Shown here: piece after piece, positions 40,296-53,733 of the stretch
How positions within the stretch are numbered: the first letter of the stretch is position 1
Layout: every line of letters starts with the position of its first letter
Origin: Chloroflexota bacterium
Lineage (GTDB): Bacteria > Chloroflexota > Dehalococcoidia > Dehalococcoidales > UBA2162
DNA length: 64,000 nucleotides
Direction of reading: 5' to 3'
Assembly (NCBI GenBank): GCA_016190825.1
Contig: JACPPV010000009.1
Span: 151,786-215,785 of the forward strand
Translations under genes and position numbers: made by a program
The notes under the pieces: model-generated
Database searches by the model: none
What the model saw: the letters and a program-made list of their open reading frames with translations, nothing else
Told to the model about the DNA's origin: nothing

Positions 40296-42323
40296 TCAGG
40301 ACACTTTGCGGCGTTTCTTTCCCAGGTAGTCCAGCAGAAGATACTTCCCCAGGGTGCCCGGGTCACTGAAGAAGACGCGCCCCCGGTTTATCTGTGCCAT
40401 CTGGGTGACGAAACTCGTGAAGAACGGTGAATCGTCAAACATGAAGGTATTTATCACGATCCCCTTCTGGGTGCAGTTCCTGACTTCCTTCAGCGTCATT
40501 TGGAGGGTGCGCAAGCTGGGCGGGTGCTGGAAATAGACCTCCGCTCCTTCGCAGTGCGCCGTCGGCTCACCATCGGATACCAGTATTATCTCTTTATTGG
40601 CGCAGTTCTGGCCAGCCAGCAGTTTCCTGGCAAGCCAGAGGGCATGCTGAAAATTGGTCCCGTGTTCGAAGAAAGGAAACGGCATTCGCAAGAGGTCCTC
40701 TCTCTTAATCTCGTGGGCTCTTCCCGAAAAGCCGATTATATAGAGGTGGTCCTTCGGGTAGTAGCTGGCGATGAGATGGTTCAGGGCGATCGCCACCCTC
40801 TTGGCGGCATCAAAATAGCCGTTCATGAACATGGACCGGCTCTGGTCCACTATCAGAACGATCGCGGAGCGCGTTGATTCTTCTGTCTTCCATACTTCGA
40901 AATCTTCCACGCTGAGGCTCACCGGAGGTGGACCGGGCTCCCGCATCAGGGAGTTCATTATCGTCTTCTGGATGTGAATATGAAAGTCATCCCCAAACTC
41001 GTACTTTCTCGTTTCCTGAGTTCTCTCGGAGCCGGCACCCATCTTATCGAGGTTATGCGGGCCGAAGTGGTCCCTTTTCATGTGAGAAAGGATGTCTTTC
41101 AGAGCTTTCTGTCCGATTTTCCGTATGCCCTGGGGAGTCAACGCATACCTGTTTCCATCTTTCCGGATGTACCCCGCTTCCTCCAGGATTTTCGCCATTT
41201 CCCGCAGTGCTTCCATCTCCCGGGTGGCTTCCTCTCCCAGCAGTTCATTGACCAAGTCAGGATTGATGTCATCCAGGTCCGGGCTGAACTGGGCCTCTTT
41301 TATTTGCTGCTCAAGGCGGTCCATCTTCTGAAGGGATTCCATGAGCTTCATCGCCTCTTCGTATGAGACGGAGTCTTCACCGGAGAATGGGTAGCCTCTT
41401 TGTCTGCGTATTCCAGGGAACATGGCATCCATGTTGACTGCCAGCTTGGCCATCTCAGCCAGCGTTGCATCATCAAACATCGAGTGGATCATTTCCTCGA
41501 GCGCCTGTCTGTCCTCTGGAGACAGGCTTTCCATGAGAGCCTCCGCCTGCTGCATCTGTTCGTGCAATCGCTCCATAAGCTCATCAAAGCTCCTGGGGGG
41601 GTTCGGGCCGAAGAAGTCGCCGAATTGCTGCATGAAGCCATCAAAATCCGGCTCCTCACCCCTTCGCTTTGCCTCCGCCATCTGGTTTATTGCCTCGAGG
41701 AGGTTTCTCATCGCCGCCATGCTCTGGGCATCCATGCTCTGCAGTCTCTGTGTCATATCGCGCATGTATGACTGCATGGCATTTTTCTTTAGCTGGTCTA
41801 AAAGCTCCTGGAACATACGCCGGGCTTCAGGGTCCATAAAATCGTATTTTGTCAGCTCTTTCACCCTGCCGCCCACATCCGGCGGCAGTTCATCCAGCTT
41901 GGCTATGTTTTGCGCCGCCCTATTCTCAAGGGTCTGACGGAGCCTTTCAGTAAGTTCCGGGGGCAGCTCCCCATTCCCTGATTCTGCTTGTTTCTTCGCC
42001 TCGTCCAGTTGCTTCTGGATACCAGCTCTCTCGGTGTCAATTATCTCATCAAGCTTCTGCCGGATATCATCCATGACGGAGCCGAGGTCATATCTTTCAA
42101 GCTGGGTTTGCCTTCTCTGGCGCAGTTGGCGTAGTAGTTTGTCTAGGCCTGGCATCTGCCTGCCCTTATCGTCCGTCATGCCGCTGCGCCGGAGGGCGCG
42201 CAACGCCTGGGCAAGATCCCCGTATTTCATCATCAATTGGTCCAGCTCGTCCATGAGCGTCTCCGCATTCAGGTCAAATACGTCCTGGCTTCCGTCCCAC
42301 TCTGAATAACGATAGGTTTTCAT
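40296..42323 (-). CDS. VWA-domain protein at the distal end of the gas-vesicle locus
   Basis: MIDAS-type ALVLIVDQSRSM region (SAIVLIVDQSRSMFMNGYFDAAKRVAIALNHLIASYYPKDHLYIIGFS) and EIILVSDGEPT; long Glu/Gln/Met-rich helical N-terminus. Confidence 0.88.
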   Translation of the reverse strand: MKTYRYSEWDGSQDVFDLNAETLMDELDQLMMKYGDLAQALRALRRSGMTDDKGRQMPGLDKLLRQLRQRRQTQLERYDLGSVMDDIRQKLDEIIDTERAGIQKQLDEAKKQAESGNGELPPELTERLRQTLENRAAQNIAKLDELPPDVGGRVKELTKYDFMDPEARRMFQELLDQLKKNAMQSYMRDMTQRLQSMDAQSMAAMRNLLEAINQMAEAKRRGEEPDFDGFMQQFGDFFGPNPPRSFDELMERLHEQMQQAEALMESLSPEDRQALEEMIHSMFDDATLAEMAKLAVNMDAMFPGIRRQRGYPFSGEDSVSYEEAMKLMESLQKMDRLEQQIKEAQFSPDLDDINPDLVNELLGEEATREMEALREMAKILEEAGYIRKDGNRYALTPQGIRKIGQKALKDILSHMKRDHFGPHNLDKMGAGSERTQETRKYEFGDDFHIHIQKTIMNSLMREPGPPPVSLSVEDFEVWKTEESTRSAIVLIVDQSRSMFMNGYFDAAKRVAIALNHLIASYYPKDHLYIIGFSGRAHEIKREDLLRMPFPFFEHGTNFQHALWLARKLLAGQNCANKEIILVSDGEPTAHCEGAEVYFQHPPSLRTLQMTLKEVRNCTQKGIVINTFMFDDSPFFTSFVTQMAQINRGRVFFSDPGTLGKYLLLDYLGKKRRKVS

Positions 42324-42491
42324 CTTGGTCCTCCCTCAGGCGCCCCCGCCCGGCCTTTTTCCCAGCACAAACAACAGATTCCTCGGAGGAAAATTGATAC
42401 TGTTATTCTAACACATATAAAAGGCTTTGCTCAAAACTGCTCCGGGAGAGAGCGCGTCTAACATCTCAGAAAAGGGGAACCCCCTCCCCGG

Positions 42492-43289
42492 TTAGAACGG
42501 CGGCCAGGGCATGCTCCGGTACGATGCCGGGTAGGGGAAAAAGGGATGTTCGATGATCTTACTAAGGCGCCGCTCAAGAGCCTCGACCTCTTCTGCTGCC
42601 AGCAGGTCGGACAGTGCTGCCCTTTCCGGCATTGGCGGCTTCAGTGCCCGATGGAATGCCTCCAGGTCCGCTATGAGTCCTGGGGGGATGGACTGTCCGG
42701 CGAAGTCCCAGATTACCGTGCGGAGCTTCGGGACAGTGTTGAAAGAAAGCGCATTGTCAATGGCCCATATGCGTCCGTCCTGCCCTTCCAGCAGATGCCC
42801 TCCCTTACGGTCGGCGTTGTTCACCAGGCAATCAAAGACAGCTATCCGTTTTAGCTCGGCTGAGTGTTTCGCCCTCAGTACATTGTAGTCCGAGCCTGAA
42901 TTCGTTTCTATGAACCATTGTACCGAGCCGATGCCGTACGGACCGTCCCGGATCACGGTAGGCGGAACGATAAACCACCCGAGGGCCTGGCTCACCACAC
43001 AGGCAGCGCACTCTCTTTTGTAAAGCGTGCCTTCCGGGAAGTCCCACAGGGGTCTTTCGCCGGCACGCGGTTTATAGACTGCCCTGGCAAACCGTTTCCC
43101 CCGGGCAAGTGTGAGCAAGAAGACGTGGTTCGATCCCCTGTAGAGCGGCTCGCAGCCGCTGATCCGCCCGCGCTTGAGAATGGCGCAGACCTCAGGTGCG
43201 GGAACGGCGCGCGCATGGAATCCTGATTTGATTGGAAAGGAGTCTCGATTCGATTCTGCTTCCAAATACCTGTTCTCCATGCAGACCAT
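42492..43289 (-). CDS. SCO1664-like family protein (PI3/4-kinase-like fold suggested)
   Basis: VFLLTLARGKRFARAVYKPRAGERPLWDFPEGTLYKRECAACVVSQALGW...VFDCLVNNADRKGGHLL...IDNALSF. Confidence 0.7.
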   Translation of the reverse strand: MVCMENRYLEAESNRDSFPIKSGFHARAVPAPEVCAILKRGRISGCEPLYRGSNHVFLLTLARGKRFARAVYKPRAGERPLWDFPEGTLYKRECAACVVSQALGWFIVPPTVIRDGPYGIGSVQWFIETNSGSDYNVLRAKHSAELKRIAVFDCLVNNADRKGGHLLEGQDGRIWAIDNALSFNTVPKLRTVIWDFAGQSIPPGLIADLEAFHRALKPPMPERAALSDLLAAEEVEALERRLSKIIEHPFFPYPASYRSMPWPPF

Positions 43290-43526
43290 CCAGCAAATCG
43301 CTCCGCGGCGTTACGGGTTCTGGTCGTGCTGCGGTATTTTTCGAGCGGTGTATAGGTAAATCATGGCTTACCTTGATGAGCCGTGTCAAGAAATCGGGGA
43401 GTTGCTGCGGAAATCAAATTGGGGGCTATGTCGAAACTGCTGAGTAATACGGGTGGTATTAAGCCGGGGATTTCGGTTGCCTTTACTGGAATAGCAGGTG
43501 GCCAGTGGAGCTACCGCAGACTCCTC

Positions 43527-44150
43527 CTATTTTCCGGTCAGAGCCTTATAGTATTCCCTAACCGTGGAGATATCCTTTACTTGGACCACCTGGATATCTT
43601 TGGGCAGCCTGTCCGTGACGTCATGATAGGCCCCGATGAATAGGACGCCGGTTTCACCTCCGCCCAGGGTCTCTCGGATTGTTTCTGCGATGAAATTATC
43701 GCGCTGCTTCAACAGCTTGTCCTGTGCCAACTTATATCTGAGGGCCCAGGTCTCTCTTTCCCTCTGCGAAGTGGAGTGGGCTATTTTTGCGATATAATCA
43801 TACTCCCGCTTGACCAGAAGGGGGTCTTCTGTCTTGACCAGTATCGCTCCCCGCTCCAGCAGGCTTCCCACGATCTCAAAGTTTTTGCTGCCCCGGCTGA
43901 TGCCCTCTTTGACAATTCGTAAACCGTTGGGACCTTCCGCTACCATCCCATCCTGGTAAATTTTGAAACCCTTTACGTCTAGGGCGCTAAAGAAGTCGGC
44001 GATGGAATCCCAGAAGCTGGAGATAGCCTGCTCGTGCTTTTGCCACGCCTCGTCTCCGATTTCTTCTGCCGCGACCTTTTCCAGGGCTGAAGCCAAAGAG
44101 CCCATGTCGGCTTTCATATGAAGGATGGGGACAAGATACAGTTTCCTCAT
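43527..44150 (-). CDS. Uncharacterised 207-aa protein in gas-vesicle locus
   Basis: ATG at 44150 (MRKLYLVPILHMKADMGSLASALEKV...); ORF-track start 44366 runs antisense-like through the upstream zinc-ribbon gene. Confidence 0.65.
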   Translation of the reverse strand: MRKLYLVPILHMKADMGSLASALEKVAAEEIGDEAWQKHEQAISSFWDSIADFFSALDVKGFKIYQDGMVAEGPNGLRIVKEGISRGSKNFEIVGSLLERGAILVKTEDPLLVKREYDYIAKIAHSTSQRERETWALRYKLAQDKLLKQRDNFIAETIRETLGGGETGVLFIGAYHDVTDRLPKDIQVVQVKDISTVREYYKALTGK

Positions 44151-44179
44151 TGTCTCGTCCTGTTGCCCCCCGTTTCCGT

Positions 44180-44374
44180 CTATCTGTTCTGAAATTTGAT
44201 TCGTTTTTCTACGGTTGCTCCGCATTCGGGGCAGAACTTGTAGAACTTCCAGAAGCGCCATCTTGCGCGGCAATGAGAGCACGTCATCGTCCAGGGCTCC
44301 CCACAATGAGGACAAAAAGCATCGGCGCTGTTTACGGTGGCGCCGCACCCGGGGCATTTGTTCCATTCCGTCAT
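44180..44374 (-). CDS. Small double zinc-ribbon protein
   Basis: MTEWNKCPGCGATVNSADAFCPHCGEPWTMTCSHCRARWRFWKFYKFCPECGATVEKR: four CxxC knuckles; ATG at 44374. Confidence 0.75.
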   Translation of the reverse strand: MTEWNKCPGCGATVNSADAFCPHCGEPWTMTCSHCRARWRFWKFYKFCPECGATVEKRIKFQNR

Positions 44375-44584
44375 GTTATTCTTCCTGCCCTGGCGGAGGG
44401 CTGAAAAAGCCTTTCTCATCAATCTTCTGGTACTTAGTTGCATAATTAACTTTATGTATTGCCTCTCCCTCTGTGGGGCATTCTATTTCACCCTTATCCC
44501 GTTGCTTCGCTCATCTCGATATGTCGGGATAACTTTCTCCCTTGAGGGGAGAAAGGAGAGATATTGCATGGTATTTTTGTAGTG

Positions 44585-44839
44585 CTAATTATCCATCGTT
44601 TCACCGCGTCTACGCAGTTTCTTCCTCCCGAAGCTGAAAACGTTGCCATCGCAGTCGAGGCAGACCTCGTAAAGTCCCAGTACATCCATCGTATCCGGGA
44701 TGGCCTTTCTTTCTACCGCTTCCAGCGAGACCAGCCAGCCCATATCCGTCTTTAAGACGCCGATAATCGAATTGATAGGCAGCCTGCTAAGGCTGGCAAA
44801 CTCATCCTGCGCCTTTCTGATAATATCATTGGCATTCAT
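44585..44839 (-). CDS. gvpO: Gas vesicle protein GvpO
   Basis: AQDEFASLSRLPINSIIGVLKTDMGWLVSLEAVERKAIPDTMDVLGLYEVCLDCDGNVFSFGRKKLRRRGE is GvpO-family-like. Confidence 0.85.
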   Translation of the reverse strand: MNANDIIRKAQDEFASLSRLPINSIIGVLKTDMGWLVSLEAVERKAIPDTMDVLGLYEVCLDCDGNVFSFGRKKLRRRGETMDN

Positions 44840-44842
44840 GTG

Positions 44843-45085
44843 CTACCTCCTGTCCATGCTTTCGCAATGTGTTGTTGCGTCCATTCGCAACGCTTCATCC
44901 CATTCCTGCCAAGTGCCGTACCTGAGCATTGTTTCCATCCCGGCGATAGCGGCCCTCAGCTTTATGCCTAGAAGAGGGATGCCGGCTACTTGGATAATGA
45001 GGTCGGCATCAATTACGAGGCCCCTGTCCAGCACCCTTTCCAGGAGGTCTGCCAGAGTGGCCCGGGTTTCCAGCGTCGAATTCAT
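44843..45085 (-). CDS. Gas vesicle protein, GvpA/J/M family
   Basis: MNSTLETRATLADLLERVLDRGLVIDADLIIQVAGIPLLGIKLRAAIAGMETMLRYG; ATGA overlap with upstream GvpL/F stop. Confidence 0.9.
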   Translation of the reverse strand: MNSTLETRATLADLLERVLDRGLVIDADLIIQVAGIPLLGIKLRAAIAGMETMLRYGTWQEWDEALRMDATTHCESMDRR

Positions 45086-45909
45086 CCTTCCGCCTCCGCC
45101 TGTGCCATCGCAACCGGCTTTGTCACAAAGCTGTAGGGAGGCCATGGGCCGGAGAAGCGGACCGAGATTCCGTCAGTGTTGTTGATTTTCTCCAGCTCTT
45201 CGCCGAGGTCGACCGCCTTTTCTTTTGCTACCAGGCATGAAAGATTGAGCAGCATTACTTCCTCTGGAGCCGCTTTCCGGGTCTTCTCAACGGCGATGTC
45301 TTCGCAGTGACTTTTGATCCTTTGGTAGAACTCATGGAACCGGTCCTTCGCCAGCGTTTCTATTTCGGCTTTCATCTCTTTCTTGATGCGCTGTTTGTAT
45401 AGAAATGCCGTTCCCTGCGATTTCGCCGCCATTTCTTCCATGAGCTCCCGGATTCTGCGACTGTGAGCCGAAAGCTGCTTTTCCAGGGCCGGGAGTGCGT
45501 AGAAGACTTGCACTCCGTATTCGTCTTTCCCCTCTATTCCCTTCAGAATAAGGGAAAATCGCTCGGAATTATCTTTCAGCCAGTGTTTTGCTGCCTGCTC
45601 GGGAGAGTCTTCGCCATCCTTGGGGAGCAGTATCGTATTGAAGCCGGCGGGGATCACGGTACCGAAGACCTCTTGTGCCCGGTCCAGGACGTTCTGGTGA
45701 TCCTTCACCCATCTTGTGACGGTCTTCCGATCAGGGGATTGATACGGCGCAGCCGGACACCGGTGCACGATTACGCAAAGGTCCTTCTCCGCAACGGTAT
45801 ATACTTCGCTGCCATCAACGCCGACCAGGTCAAGGTTTATTGACTTCCAGCCGGCAGCAATTCCGTAAAGGTATAGTCCTTCTTTCTCAATAATCGGTCT
45901 AATCTCCAA
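45082..45909 (-). CDS. Gas vesicle protein GvpL/GvpF family
   Basis: LYLYGIAAGWKSINLDLVGVDGSEVYTVAEKDLCVIVHRCPAAPYQS...VLDRAQEVFGTVIPAGFNTIL...GPWPPYSFV. Confidence 0.9.
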   Translation of the reverse strand: MEIRPIIEKEGLYLYGIAAGWKSINLDLVGVDGSEVYTVAEKDLCVIVHRCPAAPYQSPDRKTVTRWVKDHQNVLDRAQEVFGTVIPAGFNTILLPKDGEDSPEQAAKHWLKDNSERFSLILKGIEGKDEYGVQVFYALPALEKQLSAHSRRIRELMEEMAAKSQGTAFLYKQRIKKEMKAEIETLAKDRFHEFYQRIKSHCEDIAVEKTRKAAPEEVMLLNLSCLVAKEKAVDLGEELEKINNTDGISVRFSGPWPPYSFVTKPVAMAQAEAEG

Positions 45910-46219
45910 CCTTGACCTCCCTTCGAGTCTTTTCCGTGCTGACGAGCCCGCTCACAAGGTCATCTACGACTCCGTCCAGCTGTTCCCTCACCGTCTGAAC
46001 GGATTCAGATATGCCCTGCTCTTCCTTGATATCCTCAATGGCGGCATCAAGCTTCATGAGGGCTTTCCCCAGCCTCTCACACTCCTCCTCGCTCAGGGTG
46101 CCCCCCTCCATTCTTTTCAGCGCCTGGATATTGAGCGCGTCCCGGATAACCTCGATGAGCGCCACTACCAGGCCGAGGACGCCGTGTTTGAGATTGGTCT
46201 CATCAATCTGTATCACCAC
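45899..46219 (-). CDS. gvpK: Gas vesicle protein GvpK
   Basis: LKHGVLGLVVALIEVIRDALNIQALKRMEGGTLSEEECERLGKALMKLDAAIEDIKEEQGI. Confidence 0.93.
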   Translation of the reverse strand: MVIQIDETNLKHGVLGLVVALIEVIRDALNIQALKRMEGGTLSEEECERLGKALMKLDAAIEDIKEEQGISESVQTVREQLDGVVDDLVSGLVSTEKTRREVKVGD

Positions 46220-46241
46220 GTTTAACTCGCTTTCGCCAAGA

Positions 46242-46619
46242 TTACTCGGCTAACAATTCCTCGACAGGACGTACTCTCGCCTTCTTCGCCTTGGCGCTCA
46301 CCCAGCCGCACCACGGACAGCCCTCCTTGCCCAGCAGTTCGGCGACCGCGACCCGTTTGCCGCACTCAGGGCAGGGCTCCCTGCTGGACTGAGCTTCGTT
46401 CCAGGCGATCCTTTCATGGTTCGTCCCGGAGGGAAATTCCATCCCGTAGCGGGCGGCGGTCTCAAAAGAGGCTACCGCAGCCCTTATCTTGATGCCCAGC
46501 AGCTCAACCCCGGCCAGCGATACGCAAATATCGGCGTTAATGACCAGTCCTTTATCCAGGACGCGATCAATGACATCAGCCAGGGTAGAAATCCCGTCTT
46601 TTTCAGCCTGAAGCGCCAT
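46242..46619 (-). CDS. gvpJ: GvpA/GvpJ-family gas vesicle protein with C-terminal zinc ribbon
   Basis: STLADVIDRVLDKGLVINADICVSLAGVELLGIKIRAAVASFETAARYGMEF followed by CPECGKRVAVAELLGKEGCPWCGW. Confidence 0.88.
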   Translation of the reverse strand: MALQAEKDGISTLADVIDRVLDKGLVINADICVSLAGVELLGIKIRAAVASFETAARYGMEFPSGTNHERIAWNEAQSSREPCPECGKRVAVAELLGKEGCPWCGWVSAKAKKARVRPVEELLAE

Positions 46620-46875
46620 CTGCTTTCCTCCTTTGATTCTGGTATTCCCTGACGGCTCTCAACCGTTCGATGAGATGCGTTTCCAACCGCTCATATTCCT
46701 CTTCGTCCAACTCACCATCCTGTAGCGCCAGTTGAAGCTGTTGCAGTCTTTCTTTAATTGATTCTTCGGTGATCAACCGTTCACGGTCAATCTCGTCCCG
46801 CAGCTTTTCCATGACCTGGACAGTCATTGTGATCGGTACGCCGATCAGCAGGTCATACAGTAATTTGACTATCAA
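46603..46875 (-). CDS. gvpG: Gas vesicle protein GvpG
   Basis: Short acidic helical protein (VMEKLRDEIDRERLITEESIKERLQQLQLALQDGELDEEEYERLETHLIERLRAVREY) between gvpF and gvpJ; ATGA overlap with gvpF. Confidence 0.9.
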   Translation of the reverse strand: MIVKLLYDLLIGVPITMTVQVMEKLRDEIDRERLITEESIKERLQQLQLALQDGELDEEEYERLETHLIERLRAVREYQNQRRKADGASG

Positions 46876-47624
46876 TCCGCCGCCTTCAGCTTCAAACTGA
46901 CAAAGTTGTAAGGGGCGAGCGGCCCCACATACTTGAAATTAACCTTGCCCTGATACTGGGAGTCCAGGCGGTAAACTTCCTGCCTGAAGTCATTCTCTGC
47001 TGTTTTATCCACCAGGAATGAGGCGTTCAGGATATTCTTCACTCCGAGGGGGTTATTCAGGCGGGCATCAGCGGCAAGACCCCTGAGAATAGCATAGACG
47101 TGATCGGCGTATTTCGCCTTCCAGTCTAAGGCTATACGCTCCACCATTTTCCCCGCCTGCATGAGCAGTTGCTGGACCTTGGCCGGGGAGGCGGCGCTGT
47201 TTATGCTCGCTTTCAGGCGCATGAGCTCTTCGTTACCGCTTTGAAGTTCCCTGATTACGGCCTCCTGGTCCCAGAAGACCTTGAGCTCCACTTCAACTTT
47301 GCGGTCAAGCCGTTTTAGCTCGCTGGCAAGGTTCTGGTGGTTCGTCTGCATAAGGTTCAGGACATCCTTTTGACTCTTTGCCACCATGCCGAAAGCCATT
47401 GGCAAAATGGTATAGTTTGAGAGCAGTTCGTCCTGGACCAGGGTATGGGCGCGGACATTAGCGCGGGTGGGGTCTATTTCTTCAAGCTCGATATTGCTGA
47501 CAACTGCGGCGAGTCCTTCCCAGTGGATAGTGAAAACCTCGGCATCCATCATGCCGGGAGCGTTGAATCTTCTGGGCTCAGTCTCACCGATGATCCCGTA
47601 GATATATTTGCGTTCAAAGGCCAT
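46872..47624 (-). CDS. gvpF: Gas vesicle protein GvpF/GvpL family
   Basis: KYIYGIIGETEPRRF...GLAAVVSNIELEEIDPTRANVRAHTLVQDELLSNYTILPMAFGMVAKS...VKNILNASFLVDK...GPLAPYNFV. Confidence 0.93.
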   Translation of the reverse strand: MAFERKYIYGIIGETEPRRFNAPGMMDAEVFTIHWEGLAAVVSNIELEEIDPTRANVRAHTLVQDELLSNYTILPMAFGMVAKSQKDVLNLMQTNHQNLASELKRLDRKVEVELKVFWDQEAVIRELQSGNEELMRLKASINSAASPAKVQQLLMQAGKMVERIALDWKAKYADHVYAILRGLAADARLNNPLGVKNILNASFLVDKTAENDFRQEVYRLDSQYQGKVNFKYVGPLAPYNFVSLKLKAAD

Positions 47625-49759
47625 TATTTCCCCCTTTGTTTTTTGAGCCAGTCCGTAGCCAGTGAGAAGTGTTTGCGGGAGATTTCCGGTTTGCCCATGT
47701 CCGGGTCACGCTCAATTGATTCCCGTATGGCGTTAAGCGAAGCTTCGCGGCAGATGGCTTCTATCTCCGCGCCGGACAGTCCTGCGGTCTCCCGGGCTAG
47801 CATCTCAAGAGAGACGTCTTCAGTAAGAGGTTTCCCGCGGGTATGCACCTTCAATATTTCCAGCCGTCCTGTTTCATCAGGCATTGGAAATTCCAGGATG
47901 AAGTCAAACCTTCCCTGTCTCAGGACGGCGGAATCAATGAGGTCGGGACGGTTGGTGGCCGCCAGTACCAGCACTCCCCTCATTTCTTCCAGCCCGTCAA
48001 GCTCTGTCAGGAACTGGCTTATTACCCTTTCGGTAGCCTGCGAGTCCCTCGCCAGTCCCCGTTCCGGAACGAGGGAATCAAATTCATCGAAGAACACGAT
48101 GCAGGGGCTGGCCTGTTTTGCCTTGCGAAAGACTTCCCTGACCCCCCTCTCCGACTCCCCGATGTATTTGGACATCAGCTCCGGTCCTTTGACGGAGATG
48201 AAATTGATTTCGCTCTCGTTAGCCAGGGCTTTGGCGACCAGGGTTTTGCCCGTCCCCGGCGGTCCGGAGAGTAATATCCCCTTTGGCGGTCTCAGTTTGA
48301 CTTCCTGGAACAGGGCCGGGTATTTCAGCGGCCATTCCACCGCCTCGGCCAGCTTTTGCTTCACCTCGGCGAGGTTGCCCACGTCCTCCCACCTGACATT
48401 CGGTATCTCGACGAAGACCTCCCGGATCGCCGAAGGCTCCACCTCCTTGAGCGCCTCCATGAAGTTGTCCATCCCCACCTCGAGCTTGAGCAGCGTTTCG
48501 TATGGGATCTCATCCAATTGAAAATCAATGCTCGGCATTATCTTCCTCAAGGCGTTCATCGCCGATTCGCGGCAGAGGGCTTCAAGGTCGGCGCCAACAA
48601 AGCCGTGGGTAATCTGTGAGAGCCTTTCCATGTCAGCATCTTCTCGCAGGGGCATGCCGCGCGTATGTATATGAAGGATTTCAAGGCGTCCCCTCTGATC
48701 CGGGATGCTGATGGCGATTTCGCGGTCGAATCTGCCGGGACGCCGTAGCGCCGGGTCAAGGGAGTTTGGGATATTCGTGGCGCCGATGACGATTATTTCC
48801 CCACGCGATTCCAGCCCGTCCATAAGCGCCAGGAGCTGGGCGACCACCCGCCTTTCGACCTGTTTTTCTCCGCCCATTTCCTCCCTTTTGGGGGCGATGG
48901 CATCAATTTCATCAATGAAGAGTATGGCCGGGGCACGGACTTTGGCTTCTTCAAAGACTGCCCTGAGGCGGCCTTCGCTTTCACCGTAGAATTTTCCCAT
49001 TATCTCCGGCCCGGTGATGTGGGTAAAGTAGGCAGCCGTCTCATTGGCGACAGCCCGCGCAATCAGTGTTTTGCCGCATCCGGGAGGTCCGTGAAGGAGC
49101 ACTCCCTTTGGGGGGTCTATACCCAGCCGCTCGAACAGTTGGGGATATTTCAGGGGTAGCTCGATCATTTCCCTTACCCGCTGCAGCTCTTTTGCCAGTC
49201 CGCCAATATCTTCATAGGCAACCCTGGAATCCCTTGCTTCCGCCTTGTCTTTTTGTGCCACTTCTATTCTGGTCCTCGGGTGTATTACCACCGCTCCCTT
49301 TGGCACAGTGCTGACAACGGCAAAATCCTGGCCGCGGGTGCCGAAAAGATTGGCCCTTACCGTATCCCCCTCGATGAGCGCAAGCCCATCGAGAAGGGTG
49401 CCGATGTAAGCGGCGTCCCTTTCCTGGCTGGTTGTTCTGCTTACCGTCAGGCGTCTTAACATTATCTTGTCCGCCGGCGAAAAATCAATTTTTCGCACAC
49501 TTACCTTTTCATCAAGCGAAACTCCGGCATTTCCCCGCAGAAGCCCATCCATCTGGACGAGGGATTTGTCCCGGTCCTCGGCATAGGCTGGCATGATCTT
49601 GGCGACCGTCTTCCGTTTGCCCTCTATCTGGACAATGTCGCCAACCTGGACGTTTAAGCCTTCCATGTCACGCGGGTCAATCCGGCAGATTCCCCGTCCA
49701 ACATCCTTCGCCTTCGCCTCGGCAACCCGGAGGCTCAGGGACCTAATTTCCGTACTCAT
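47624..49759 (-). CDS. CDC48/VAT-type AAA ATPase (double-psi N-domain plus two AAA modules)
   Basis: [41 protein letters not shown]-domain; [17 protein letters not shown] and [17 protein letters not shown] Walker [13 protein letters not shown] and [12 protein letters not shown] Walker B. Confidence 0.95.
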
Positions 49760-49775
49760 TTCTGCCAGCCTCCGA

Positions 49776-50318
49776 TCATTTTTCCTTTTCGAGCCTGATC
49801 TCTAAAATGCCGTTCTGATAGGCAGTCTTTAGTGAAGCCGGTTTTACCCTGGTGGGAAGCAGAATCTCTTTGGCATATTTCCTGTCCACATCCGAGGCGG
49901 CGATATTGAGAATATCACCGGCTATCTCAATACTGATTTTGTCTTCGGATACCCCGGGGAGCTCAGCGATGACCACTATATGCCTTTCTTCATCGAAGAT
50001 ATCGGTAATCGGCTCGCGGACTTCCTGTACCACCGGCCCCTTCGCCGTCTCCCGGATATTGCCAAAGCTCTCGATTACCGGCTTACCAGCCATGGTCCTG
50101 ATGCTGAAGCCGTATACCCCTTTCATGCCCTTTGGCAGGTCTTTGATTTCACCCGTTTTCTCTACTTCTTCCTCTTTTAACTTGGCCGCAAGGTCGACGA
50201 GATTACCCAGACCCTTGAAGAGCCCGCCGAAGCTTATCTTGCCGGCCCCGAAATCAATTTCGACCCTGTCCTCTTCTTTTTCTTTTTCCCGGTCTTTTTT
50301 CTTTTTCCCGTCAGCCAT
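49776..50318 (-). CDS. Hsp20/alpha-crystallin-like protein (GvpH-like)
   Basis: [52 protein letters not shown]...[11 protein letters not shown] alpha-crystallin pattern; ATG at 50318 ([14 protein letters not shown]). Confidence 0.87.
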
Positions 50319-50328
50319 TATGTTCTCC

Positions 50329-51237
50329 TTACCAGAAATGGACACCCAGAGTGTCATCAATTGCCCGCGTAACCGCTTCCCTCTCGTCTCGTGGGACATC
50401 CGGCAACAGGATATCAGTGCAGATCTGCCTGAATGCAGCACCGTTTCTTGACAGGTCGTCTCCCTTCATCTTCAGTATCTTCCCGATGACAACACACGCC
50501 CGCACTGTGGGAGTAAGGCTGTCTGACTTTGATTCCCTTACCCTTCTTACCAGCCTGACGATGCGCAGGGCGTCTTCAATTGGGAGACCGGACTTTTTCA
50601 TGGTGATGGCGGTCTCGGTCTCCTCGTCAAAGTTGCCCACTTCTATGGTTACCATGCGATTGCGAAGGGCATCCTGGGTCCTGTAAACACCGGCATATTC
50701 TTCGGGGTTTGAGGTAAAGATAGCGGTAAAGGCGGGATGCACCTTCAGGTAGCTCTCTTCTCCCCTGGCAGCCGGCACGGGGAGGATTCTCTCTTCAAGG
50801 ACTGAAAGGAGGATGTTATTTGCTTCTGGTCGTGACCTGGTAAACTCGTCGTAGACCAGGGTAAACCCGTGCTGGCAGGCGGTGGTAAGCCGGTTGTCCA
50901 CCCAGTGCGATGTCATGCTCTCGTCGGTCTTAATCACCGAACGGATAAAGTTATCCTTCATGAACTTTTTGTGGTACCCGTTAAGCCCGCCCACGAAGTC
51001 TGAGCTGTTAAATTCGTGGTCTCCGCAGATGAGCACCACCGGGCGGCCAAGCTGGGCAGCCACGTGCAGAGCCAGCGTGGTCTTGCCTACCCCCGGGGGA
51101 CCGCTGAAATGTACCGGGAAGCCGGCCCTTATGCAGTCCAGCGCCCTCCCGGTGAGGTTTTGAACGTACGGCGTCTCGATAAAGTCCCCGCCGGGCTTAA
51201 TGCTTAAAACTGTTGTCATATCGGTTCCTGTCTCCAT
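50329..51237 (-). CDS. gvpN: Gas vesicle protein GvpN (MoxR/CbbQ-class AAA ATPase)
   Basis: HFSGPPGVGKTTLALHVAAQLGRPVVLICGDHEFNSSDFVGGLNGYHKKFMKDNFIRSV...LVYDEFTRSRPEANNILLSVLEERIL. Confidence 0.95.
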   Translation of the reverse strand: METGTDMTTVLSIKPGGDFIETPYVQNLTGRALDCIRAGFPVHFSGPPGVGKTTLALHVAAQLGRPVVLICGDHEFNSSDFVGGLNGYHKKFMKDNFIRSVIKTDESMTSHWVDNRLTTACQHGFTLVYDEFTRSRPEANNILLSVLEERILPVPAARGEESYLKVHPAFTAIFTSNPEEYAGVYRTQDALRNRMVTIEVGNFDEETETAITMKKSGLPIEDALRIVRLVRRVRESKSDSLTPTVRACVVIGKILKMKGDDLSRNGAAFRQICTDILLPDVPRDEREAVTRAIDDTLGVHFW

Positions 51238-51259
51238 CAGTCCTTCTCAAAATCAAAAA

Positions 51260-51667
51260 CTAATAGCTTAACTCAATCTGGTGCAGCTTCACCTCTGAAA
51301 CTGCTTTGTTTGCTTGCGTCGCCGGGACGGTATCTTCCCAGCGCGCTTGCTGGAGCTTTTGCCTTAGCTCGGTCAGTGCCCGGTTTTTGTTTACCGTCAT
51401 CGCCAGCTTATGCCTGGACCTGAGCATTCTCTGCCTCGATTTATTGACCGCGGCATCGAGAGCTGCGGACCGCTTCTTTTCCCTTTCCAGCACCCGGGCA
51501 AGGCGAGGGTCAGCGAGGTTTTCAAGGTACCGTTTCTCCTCTTCAGTCCTGGACAGGCTATTGGTGGTATTGGTCTTCTGTCTTCGGGCGAGGTCCAGGC
51601 TGGTCTTCACCTGGCGCATTGTCCTGACGTTTCTCAACGCCTCACTTTTCATGACAGCCTCAATCAT
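51260..51667 (-). CDS. Small Arg/Lys-rich coiled-coil protein in gvp operon
   Basis: ATG at 51667 (MIEAVMKSEALRNVRTMRQVKTSLDLARRQ...), 8-nt overlap with the upstream stop; predicted helical from composition. Confidence 0.65.
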   Translation of the reverse strand: MIEAVMKSEALRNVRTMRQVKTSLDLARRQKTNTTNSLSRTEEEKRYLENLADPRLARVLEREKKRSAALDAAVNKSRQRMLRSRHKLAMTVNKNRALTELRQKLQQARWEDTVPATQANKAVSEVKLHQIELSY

Positions 51668-52460
51668 TGCTCGCCGGGAAGTAGGTCCTGTCTTCCCTGC
51701 GAATTTTTCCTTTGTCAATGAGCTTTTTTGCCGCGCGCCCGAGGACGATGGGCGCAACACTCAGGCTGGCTGCAATCTCAGCCAGGGTGCTTCCTTCAGG
51801 GCGCTCACCAACTGCTGTCAGCAATCTGGTTTCCAGATCAGGGACTTCCGGTGTTTCTACTGCCGTTTCCTTGGGACCTTCTGGCTGTGTGGGCGTGCGG
51901 TTTGCCCCTGGCGTGTTTGCCAGGCTATGCCAGGCTTCACTTGCCTGTCTTATCTCCTCCCTTATCCCGGCACGCGCTTTGTGCAACGTGTCCCGCATCC
52001 CCCCGACCACCGCCCTGATTCCAGCCATGCCTTCAGTCAGGTCTTTCCTTAACTCAGTTCCCGCTGTCTGCCTGGACTGATTGAAGTCTGTAACAATGTT
52101 TTGGAATCCGTTGAGCAGTTCTTCCATGTCGGCCCTGTGGTTCGCACAAGTCCGGATAAGCTCTCTTCTGAGCCGTCCGCCCTCTTCTCTCCGAAAGGAG
52201 TGGGCAGTCGACACGGCCTGCCTGGCGTTTCTCCTGAGAGTGTTGACGTCAGACCTGCGCAGCGAGGCTGCCCTGGTCAGATTCCTGCGGAGCTGGACCC
52301 TCGCCTGACCGCGTGAGGATTGAAAGTTCTTTATGAGGCCACGGGCTTCCGCCGATAGGGTTTCTGCATCTTTTCTCATATTGCTGATTGCCTTTATCCT
52401 GTCCTGGCGGGAGGAGGCAATGTCTTGAATCAGTTCCTTCATGCTGGATGCGATTGTCAT
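51660..52460 (-). CDS. GvpC-like repeat/coiled-coil protein with C-terminal winged-helix-like segment
   Basis: Imperfect repeats beginning MRKDAETL / LRRNLTRA / LRRELIRT / LRKDLTEG at intervals 29, 40, 40; C-term LLTAVGERPEGSTLAEIAASLSVAPIVLGRAAKKLIDKGKIRREDRTYF. Confidence 0.75.
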   Translation of the reverse strand: MTIASSMKELIQDIASSRQDRIKAISNMRKDAETLSAEARGLIKNFQSSRGQARVQLRRNLTRAASLRRSDVNTLRRNARQAVSTAHSFRREEGGRLRRELIRTCANHRADMEELLNGFQNIVTDFNQSRQTAGTELRKDLTEGMAGIRAVVGGMRDTLHKARAGIREEIRQASEAWHSLANTPGANRTPTQPEGPKETAVETPEVPDLETRLLTAVGERPEGSTLAEIAASLSVAPIVLGRAAKKLIDKGKIRREDRTYFPASND

Positions 52461-52487
52461 TCTGCTACTCCTTTCTTGAACTCTTGA

Positions 52488-53165
52488 TTACTGTTCTGGA
52501 TTGCCGTCTGCGGACGACACGCTCAAAGTAAGGTAAAGTCTTTGCACATCCTTTTGTCGGCAGTCTCCGGGTAGGTTTTGTCCTCGGGCGGCCTCACCGG
52601 CCTGAAGCTGTCTCAGGTCCTCCGTTCTCAGGGTCTCTCCCATACCCACCAGCTTCTGGAGCTTCATGTTTATCTCCTTCTGTTCCCTTCGGAAAGACTC
52701 CAGTCGCGCCTGGAAATAACGCAGCGAAGCAAAAGCCTGCTGTCCGCCATGCCGGTATGCGGCTTCAATCATGCCCATCGTTGTTTCAAGGACGATTGTG
52801 TCCCCTTTCCCGTAGATGAACCCGGCTAGCTGTTGGTGAAGGTTGCACACTGATTGCTTCAACTCGTCGAGGTAGCTGTTGAGCCCTTCGCCAATACGTA
52901 TGCGGTCGGTTTCCAGCGCTGTCAGGTCTTTCTCATACCGGCAACGTATCCCCTTCGTCAATGATTCGAAGTCTTTTTTCCGGAGAGTGCAATTTTTCGC
53001 CAGTAATACCTGCAAAGTGTTCTCCAGCCTTGTTCTCTCTCCGGCAACTTCAGCCAGGTTGGTATTCATGGTTGTCATCGAGTAAAAGGCGCCAGTGATT
53101 AACTCCTCTATTATCGAAATCCTGTTTTCGCAGGTGGTGATCAGGTCGAGAACCAGTTGTTTCAT
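52488..53165 (-). CDS. Coiled-coil protein in gvp operon
   Basis: ATG at 53165 (MKQLVLDLITTCENRISIIEELITGAFYSM...); long charged helical segments; ORF-track start 53240 is upstream of a better start. Confidence 0.65.
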   Translation of the reverse strand: MKQLVLDLITTCENRISIIEELITGAFYSMTTMNTNLAEVAGERTRLENTLQVLLAKNCTLRKKDFESLTKGIRCRYEKDLTALETDRIRIGEGLNSYLDELKQSVCNLHQQLAGFIYGKGDTIVLETTMGMIEAAYRHGGQQAFASLRYFQARLESFRREQKEINMKLQKLVGMGETLRTEDLRQLQAGEAARGQNLPGDCRQKDVQRLYLTLSVSSADGNPEQ

Positions 53166-53260
53166 CTCTTCCTCCACTTTGCCGGGGGCGAATTTGGCAG
53201 GGTGCACGCGGCCAATGGCTAGGGGCGGGCACTCTGGCAAAACTCCCCCGCCGCTTCAGT

Positions 53261-53467
53261 CTAGGCCGCTGGCGCAGTCAAGCCAATTGCTTCCGCGTAC
53301 TTCAGATAGGTTTCGACACCGGCGAGGACGATCCTGGCTTCAACAGTCAGAATTTCCAGACCCAGCAGGGATACTCTTACCCAAGCATCCAGCACAAGCC
53401 CTTTGTCCAAAATCCGGTCAAGAACTTCAGCAAGCCCGGAAGACGCCATCGAAGTCTGAACTGCCAT
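53261..53467 (-). CDS. gvpA: Major gas vesicle structural protein GvpA
   Basis: [55 protein letters not shown] is canonical GvpA; preceded by AGAAAGGAGGTGAT. Confidence 0.98.
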
Positions 53468-53472
53468 TACTA

Positions 53473-53486
53473 ATCACCTCCTTTCT
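53473..53486 (-). promoter_or_regulatory. Extended Shine-Dalgarno of gvpA
   Basis: AGAAAGGAGGTGAT, 14 nt complementary to the usual bacterial 16S rRNA 3' tail (ATCACCTCCTTTCT). Confidence 0.8.
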
Positions 53487-53564
53487 CTAAAATTTGGATT
53501 CGAAGAGTTTTCCCCCCGGGCTGTAATAATGATGACGCTCAGGGAGGTCTCTGAAATCCGCCAT
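53487..53564 (-). CDS. Candidate 25-aa leader ORF just upstream of gvpA
   Basis: ATG..TAG reading MADFRDLPERHHYYSPGGKLFESKF*; stop abuts the gvpA Shine-Dalgarno; no strong SD of its own. Confidence 0.3.
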   Translation of the reverse strand: MADFRDLPERHHYYSPGGKLFESKF

Positions 53565-53704
53565 GATAACCCGCTAATGCTCATGTGGGGTTTCCACTCC
53601 GGCGATTTTCTGGCAAGGACTTTTCTTCATTTGATGACGGCTGGCAATATCTTTCACTGCGTATTGACTCCCTAGTGCGTTACTTTAAGTGCCAGTTGAC
53701 ACCT

Positions 53705-53733
53705 ATTATGCACTGAAAGTGCCCTCTTGTCAA
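53705..53733 (-). promoter_or_regulatory. Candidate gvp operon promoter with palindromic spacer
   Basis: Minus strand TTGACA (53733-53728), 17 nt, CATAAT (53710-53705); palindrome GCACT-TTC-AGTGC at 53722-53710. Confidence 0.55.

Follow-up and report, generated by a model that had tools for sequence, protein, structure and literature searches.

Organization of the gas-vesicle operon

The 64,000-nucleotide window analyzed here (Chloroflexota bacterium, order Dehalococcoidales, assembly GCA_016190825.1, contig JACPPV010000009.1, positions 151,786 to 215,785) contains a gas-vesicle (gvp) locus that includes a gene for the AAA+ ATPase CDC48. From the open reading frames and family searches we delineate a 16-gene operon on the minus strand, running from gvpA (53467) to a terminal orphan gene (43527) in the order gvpA-cc1-cc2-cc3-N-H(Hsp20)-CDC48-F-G-J(Zn)-K-L-M-O-zinc ribbon-orphan. 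Judged by its gene content, the locus is one complete gas-vesicle operon, in which GvpA is the predicted shell protein, J(Zn), M and K belong to the minor hydrophobic or nucleation families, and F, L, G, O and N would serve as accessory proteins. The features are as follows.

53705..53733, minus strand: sigma-70-type operon promoter, TTGACA-17-CATAAT (11 of 12 consensus positions)
53261..53467, minus strand: gvpA, predicted shell protein, 68 residues (NF006874, 118.8 bits, over cut-off)
52488..53165, minus strand: cc1, helical protein of about 225 residues (no family over cut-off; start from homologues)
51660..52460, minus strand: cc2, GvpC-like, with three 40-residue repeats (by self-similarity) and a C-terminal winged-helix-like domain
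51260..51652, minus strand: cc3, basic helical protein of about 130 residues (conserved before gvpN; start from homologues)
50329..51237, minus strand: gvpN, MoxR-like AAA+ ATPase (TIGR02640, 334 bits, over cut-off)
49776..50318, minus strand: gvpH-like Hsp20 small heat-shock protein, about 180 residues (NF041800, over cut-off)
47624..49759, minus strand: CDC48/p97-family double-ring AAA+ unfoldase, 711 residues (TIGR01243, 945 bits)
46872..47624, minus strand: gvpF (PF06386, 208.7 bits; start overlaps the CDC48 stop)
46603..46875, minus strand: gvpG (PF05120, 47.2 bits, over cut-off)
46242..46619, minus strand: gvpJ with a C-terminal zinc ribbon, CPxC...CPWC (PF00741, 61.6 bits)
45899..46219, minus strand: gvpK (PF05121, 67.8 bits)
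45082..45909, minus strand: gvpL (PF06386, 200.1 bits)
44843..45085, minus strand: gvpM-like GvpA paralogue (PF00741, 59.6 bits; start overlaps the gvpL stop)
44585..44839, minus strand: gvpO (PF05800, 68.3 bits)
44180..44374, minus strand: double zinc ribbon protein, about 64 residues (PF12773, 34.7 bits, over cut-off)
43527..44150, minus strand: terminal orphan, 207 residues, possibly TraB/PrgY-like (23-member alignment; PF01963 weak)

The promoter is the best in the scan. Its -10 box ends 238 nt 5′ of the gvpA start, which is preceded by a strong Shine-Dalgarno site (AAAGGAGGTGAT). The original prediction, made from the sequence alone, had described a row of about 17 genes from gvpA to a VWA gene. 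Every gene that it listed was confirmed on the minus strand and in the order given, but the operon itself comprises 16 genes and stops at the orphan, and the end coordinate proposed for the locus, 53733, is the first base of the promoter upstream of gvpA. Homologue alignment and the positions of upstream genes indicate that several true starts probably lie further downstream, at 53165 (cc1), 51652 (cc3), 50318 (H), 45085 (M), 44374 (zinc ribbon) and 44150 (orphan). The cluster lies within a contig of 215,785 bases and has housekeeping genes to either side, in agreement with the chromosomal setting that had been suggested; the host assembly (G000) totals 1.8 Mb in 41 contigs and is 91% complete.

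The core Gvp families are recognizable as predicted, with A, N, F, L, G, K, O and two GvpJ/M-type proteins over curated cut-offs, and the core genes A, N, F/L, G, J, K and O are intact by Pfam and NCBIfam. GvpN retains both Walker A and Walker B, and gvpA is 85-99% identical in three related genomes. Two gvpJ genes had been proposed. There are indeed two PF00741 proteins, but the second is nearest to GvpM (NF046091, 83 bits, cut-off 109). The model nearest to GvpJ(Zn) is haloarchaeal GvpJ NF046090 (102 bits, cut-off 125), and GvpL scores 174.9 bits with NF045778 (cut-off 200). The expected Hsp20/GvpH-like gene is also present: it exceeds the archaeal-type Hsp20 model NF041800 (146 bits, cut-off 140) but falls below the GvpH model PF05455 (15.5 bits, cut-off 22).

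CDC48 is linked to gas-vesicle genes across many phyla

The CDC48 protein exceeds the TIGR01243 cut-off of 803 bits and carries CDC48_N (E 9e-29) and CDC48_2 domains, placing it in the family. Walker A and B are intact in both rings, as are the GRFD motifs, and both pore loops (KFYG and KYIG) contain aromatic residues, which together match the expectation for a threading unfoldase. The N domain, two AAA rings, catalytic motifs and pore-loop aromatics are shared with archaeal CDC48/VAT and eukaryotic p97, but the C-terminal HbYX proteasome-docking tail of those proteins is missing. An HbYX-like tail was found in 0 of 68 gvp-linked CDC48s versus 15 of 19 archaeal copies, and no 20S proteasome/HslV match (PF00227) was found in the host assembly or in four gvp-bearing relatives, all of these assemblies being incomplete. 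The natural reading is that this CDC48 would remodel its substrates without proteasomal degradation.

Among 156 genomes of the host's order, GvpN exceeds its cut-off in four, and three further gvp-bearing genomes (G082, G045 and G042) surfaced through contigs holding the operon end, for a total of seven. Six of these seven genomes have CDC48, whereas no copy was found in any of the other 149 (Fisher p = 4e-10). The association also holds for 400 genomes across Chloroflexota, with CDC48 in 42 of 60 gvp-bearing genomes versus 34 of 340 others (p = 5e-22). When 40 gvp loci were fetched from this set, CDC48 was visible in 18 within the stretch examined. Some of the CDC48s in those 34 genomes are about 900 residues long, and many Chloroflexota CDC48s not linked to gvp (L257-L260 and similar) make up a distinct long type of this size, which is common in family f75.

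A scan of named genomes with GvpN gave 80 loci from many phyla, 53 of which span at least 12 kb. Within these 53, CDC48 is present in 47, Hsp20 in 44, ArsA in 28, the orphan in 21 and DnaK in 5, fractions that hold for this GvpN branch and not for all gas vesicles. In all 58 CDC48-bearing loci the gene lies on the gvpN strand, at a median distance of 2.2 kb. Database annotation places a ‘CDC48 family AAA ATPase’ beside gvp genes on Methylosinus plasmid pMSC49b, and on Nostoc sphaeroides plasmid p4 (L336 9801-13584) ArsA and an AAA ATPase resembling CDC48 come after a gvp locus. This ATPase has about 613 residues and scores 540 bits to the window's CDC48. DnaK adjoins gvp genes in seven loci, so some gas-vesicle types may have a larger Hsp20-Hsp70-CDC48 chaperone set.

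Forty-five sampled genomes were searched whole, 43 of them from bacteria picked because CDC48 had been seen in the gvp locus. A second CDC48 copy is missing in 40 of these 43. In the genome of a Methanosarcinales archaeon, the sole CDC48 lies on a different contig from the gvp locus and is presumably a housekeeping copy. Gas-vesicle loci would carry their own CDC48 because many bacteria have none, whereas in archaea with a housekeeping CDC48 the gvp locus need not carry one.

Gvp-linked copies also cluster in a quick tree of 109 CDC48 sequences, where the gvp label changes 3 times compared with 31 in shuffles. The window's CDC48 belongs to a clade with a Shimodaira-Hasegawa-like approximate likelihood ratio test (SH-aLRT) support of 100, together with those of G127, G124, G042, a Lake Tanganyika Chloroflexi metagenome-assembled genome (MAG), Synergistota L-13 and a Syntrophomonadaceae MAG; all members except G042 share the compact gene order described below. 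An archaeal origin of the gvp-linked CDC48s was dropped as a proposal since the root of this tree is unsupported (SH-aLRT 35). CDC48 and Hsp20 are both general chaperone families, and they could be ordinary housekeeping chaperones that stand in the locus by accident. This is very improbable, as the searched gvp-less genomes of the order have no CDC48, the gvp-linked gene is nearly always the sole copy in the bacteria sampled, and the gvp-linked copies group together in the tree.

Comparison with described gas-vesicle systems

No paper with this gene order, and none on gvp-linked CDC48, was found in the literature searched, which left most subscription papers and preprints outside its scope; to this extent the distinct subtype of the original prediction is supported. 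Its view that the accessory genes fall outside known gvp sets stands against Halobacterium but not more broadly, as CDC48 and Hsp20 accompany gvp genes in many bacterial phyla. Gvp operons with ArsA and Hsp20, that is, likewise with an extra ATPase and Hsp20, were reported from Bacteroidota/Chlorobiota, deltaproteobacteria and others by Castillo and Saier 2010 (PMC2963123). In the accessible part of that source the ATPase is ArsA and not CDC48, while the window's gvp locus has no ArsA.

The Halobacterium salinarum pNRC100 cluster (gvpACNO / gvpDEFGHIJKLM) has A, N, O, F, G, an Hsp20/GvpH-type protein, J, K, L and M in common with the window. In the window, J, L and M come nearest to haloarchaeal models, yet all three fall below the NCBIfam cut-offs. 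The genes of the window's operon run in one direction instead of in two divergent units and lack GvpD, GvpE, GvpI and a recognizable GvpC. They add CDC48, cc1 to cc3, the zinc ribbons and the orphan, and the haloarchaeal locus has no CDC48.

Closer parallels come from bacteria. The Desulfobacterium (Desulfocicer) vacuolatum DSM 3385 locus also has Hsp20, CDC48, gvpA, a cc2-like gene, gvpN, F and G on one strand, but CDC48 lies upstream of gvpA, ArsA is present and the gene order is otherwise different. A cloned part of this cluster, which may or may not include CDC48, is reported to yield gas vesicles in E. coli (PMC10344784). Synergistota L-13 (CP074691) and the Syntrophomonadaceae MAG share the arrangement A-cc1-(cc2)-cc3-N-H-CDC48-F-G-J(Zn)-K-L-M-O, and their CDC48s, from the same clade, are 65-67% identical to the window's. 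These two loci differ in having two or three gvpA genes and no detected zinc ribbon or orphan at the end, and the Syntrophomonadaceae locus has no cc2 match.

Conservation of a compact gene order

In the neighborhood comparison, all accessory genes but the SCO1664-like and VWA genes prove to be conserved beside gvp in relatives. Three relatives keep A-cc1-cc2-cc3-N-H in order, and in two of them the row continues after H with CDC48-F-G-J(Zn)-K(-L). The third relative is G062, which has a first locus ending after Hsp20 and, on a second contig, CDC48-F-G-J-K-L-M-O-orphan. On further contigs the operon end reads K-L-M-O, in some cases a zinc ribbon, and the orphan, beyond which the genes are unrelated. 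Related genomes keep the order, with per-protein identities of 32-99%, which excludes a chance arrangement.

The A-to-O or A-to-orphan order recurs in Synergistota/Atribacteria, Syntrophomonadaceae and the Lake Tanganyika Chloroflexi MAG. This exact order defines a compact subtype that spans at least three phyla. There are hence two levels to distinguish, a widespread CDC48-containing gvp type and the compact exact-order subtype: the distinct subtype that had been proposed is real as a gene order, but the CDC48 link reaches far beyond any private subtype. One relative, G127 (8% contamination estimate), has at least two gvp loci (L034, L035, L120, L121 and L122), and on one of its contigs a stand-alone DnaJ-type CXXCXGXG zinc protein lies between gvpL and gvpM.

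Coiled-coil proteins, zinc ribbons and the terminal orphan

Self-similarity analysis of cc2 gives peaks at lags of 40 (z 7.2) and 80 (z 5.9) residues in the window, and at the same lags in four close relatives (z 9-13 and 6-10, respectively). The 40-residue repeat is present in three copies in the window and in four in the relatives, and the periodicity is weak or missing in more distant loci. As a control, the same method returns 33 for cyanobacterial GvpC. Like cyanobacterial GvpC, cc2 is encoded in the gvpA-gvpN interval and has helical tandem repeats of variable copy number. The repeats differ in length (40 versus 33 residues), no GvpC match was found in Pfam or NCBIfam, and cc2 is fused to a C-terminal winged-helix-like domain (MarR_2, E 5e-4, below cut-off). 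For the latter two reasons we class cc2, from its predicted features, as GvpC-like and do not file it as GvpC. Since the 33-residue repeat of GvpC spans four GvpA subunits (PMC10903477), 40 residues would by simple arithmetic correspond to about 4.85, near five.

For cc1, no family over cut-off was found in family searches. It is the conserved second gene in eight loci, and its predicted model of three long helices has low confidence (predicted local distance difference test score, pLDDT, of 72). A shell-associated protein or assembly factor is probable. The cc3 gene is kept immediately before gvpN in eight loci. No strong repeat was found in cc1 or cc3 with the method used for cc2.

The winged-helix-like domain of cc2 bears on a regulatory role for CDC48, in which it would unfold or extract a gvp transcription factor or anti-factor, comparable to the part played by haloarchaeal GvpD/GvpE. 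Three relatives also have a small excisionase/MerR-like DNA-binding gene immediately ahead of gvpA (L035 5516-5779, L036 3045-3440 and L037 797-1045), which speaks for such a role as well. We nonetheless regard it as improbable. The open reading frames and upstream sequence of the window include no such gene ahead of gvpA, CDC48 lies amid structural and assembly genes, beside Hsp20 and overlapping gvpF, and the CDC48-gvp pairing persists across phyla.

At the operon end, homologues of the double zinc ribbon occupy the equivalent place in three other loci, and the orphan is the last gvp-operon gene in seven. The orphan family was found in 23 of the 80 gvpN loci, and in an alignment of these 23 members a VPxxH close to the start, a YQDG and a GxxH close to the end are retained. 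PF01963 (TraB/PrgY) scores 13.4 bits against the orphan, short of its cut-off of 26.8, and is weak in 11 of the 23 members. Where TraB/PrgY proteins have GxxH motifs (EreA/ChaN-like), the orphan keeps the C-terminal GxxH and its N-terminal counterpart reads PxxH. The AlphaFold2 model is confident (pLDDT 92.7) and has no significant match among PDB or viral structures. A TraB relative for profile comparison was sought in 61 Chloroflexota genomes and none was found. A TraB-type metal-dependent hydrolase is our guess. The orphan was also considered as strictly gvp-specific, a proposal that had to be narrowed: 87 of the 156 genomes of the order have matches, most with distant paralogues (mostly 25-33% identity), and the close clade of the family is the gvp-linked one. 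The host itself encodes a paralogue of about 27% identity outside the window (L128 9846-10529, contig C2), and the family is widespread without gvp in the order.

Genes downstream of the operon

An SCO1664-like kinase-fold gene (42492-43289) and a VWA gene (40296-42323) lie downstream of the operon. They had been counted among the gvp accessories, an assignment that we withdraw: the two form an adjacent pair in gvp-less relatives and occur in no relative's gvp locus. Of the order's 156 genomes, 23 have VWA homologues, in most cases without gvp, and the host genome has three matching places. Elsewhere the gene is paired with SCO1664 or stands behind another ATPase gene. As SCO1664 and VWA form a separate conserved pair, the operon ends at the orphan (43527).

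MoxR proteins are known in pairs with VWA partners, as in NorQ-NorD and CbbQ-CbbO. GvpN being a MoxR-type AAA+ ATPase, and the VWA gene lying downstream of its operon, the two might have acted as such a pair, with the VWA protein part of the system. We rejected this as hardly credible, given the separate SCO1664 pairing in gvp-less relatives and the lack of any conserved VWA gene beside gvpN in the relatives compared.

Proposed role of the Hsp20-CDC48 module and its significance

From the predicted proteins and their distribution, we consider it likely that these gas vesicles have a dedicated, proteasome-independent Hsp20-CDC48 module that handles GvpA, J and M. Hsp20 (GvpH) would hold these aggregation-prone proteins. 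The CDC48 hexamer, with no proteasome partner, would use ATP to unfold them or pull them out of aggregates, dead-end nuclei or collapsed shells, which would make the freed proteins available again. Adaptor or processing functions may fall to the zinc ribbons and the orphan. In the shell, cc2, perhaps together with cc1 and cc3, would provide stiffening as GvpC does, each of its helical repeats spanning about five GvpA subunits and not four. Haloarchaeal GvpH keeps GvpM from aggregating, and mutants without GvpH form fragile vesicles (PMC6107691). Because GvpH protects GvpM there and the window encodes a GvpM-like protein, the neighboring Hsp20 fits the module. The original prediction had suggested that the locus has its own assembly or quality-control machinery. 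Such a role is the most economical reading of CDC48, Hsp20 and the zinc ribbons, but SCO1664 and VWA belong elsewhere.

One possible alternative is that CDC48 serves to dismantle mature or collapsed vesicles, for buoyancy loss or protein recycling, and not to assist assembly. CDC48 elsewhere segregates polypeptides out of large assemblies (PMC5468458), and no specific gas-vesicle degradation route is known (PMC10903477). However, CDC48 stands among assembly genes, probably on the same transcript, so that a pure disassembly factor would be active during vesicle growth. We rate this alternative as rather unlikely.

Several observations weigh against a dedicated Hsp20-CDC48 module. Halobacterium forms gas vesicles without a gvp-linked CDC48, and the gvp loci of Spartinivicinus and Octadecabacter plasmids go without it as well, so CDC48 is not universally required. 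Within Chloroflexota, 18 of the 60 gvp-bearing genomes have no CDC48, and CDC48s that are not gvp-linked also occur. The 80 loci are the best matches to this GvpN type and not a random sample. Finally, the substrate of CDC48 and the direction of its action (assembly, repair or dismantling) are inferred.

The distinctive part of these results is the dedicated gvp-linked CDC48, which is far more widespread than first supposed; gvp-linked ArsA and Hsp20 were already in the literature. More tentatively, CDC48/p97 might be, in many of the bacteria that have one, a locus-carried, proteasome-independent gas-vesicle unfoldase that both maintains GvpA-family proteins in an assembly-competent state and takes apart vesicles that are faulty or collapsed, with the compact subtype adding a five-subunit GvpC analogue. 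The solubility of GvpA and any specific mechanism of vesicle degradation are listed as open in a recent review (PMC10903477). Present beside gvp in many phyla and missing from the Halobacterium model locus, CDC48 is a concrete candidate for both questions. Its role is testable with the heterologous gvp operons that already serve as ultrasound reporters, and a dedicated CDC48 may help explain why many cloned gvp clusters fail in E. coli. For the protein families involved, the module would imply that bacterial CDC48 has a role independent of the proteasome and that GvpC has an analogue with another repeat length.

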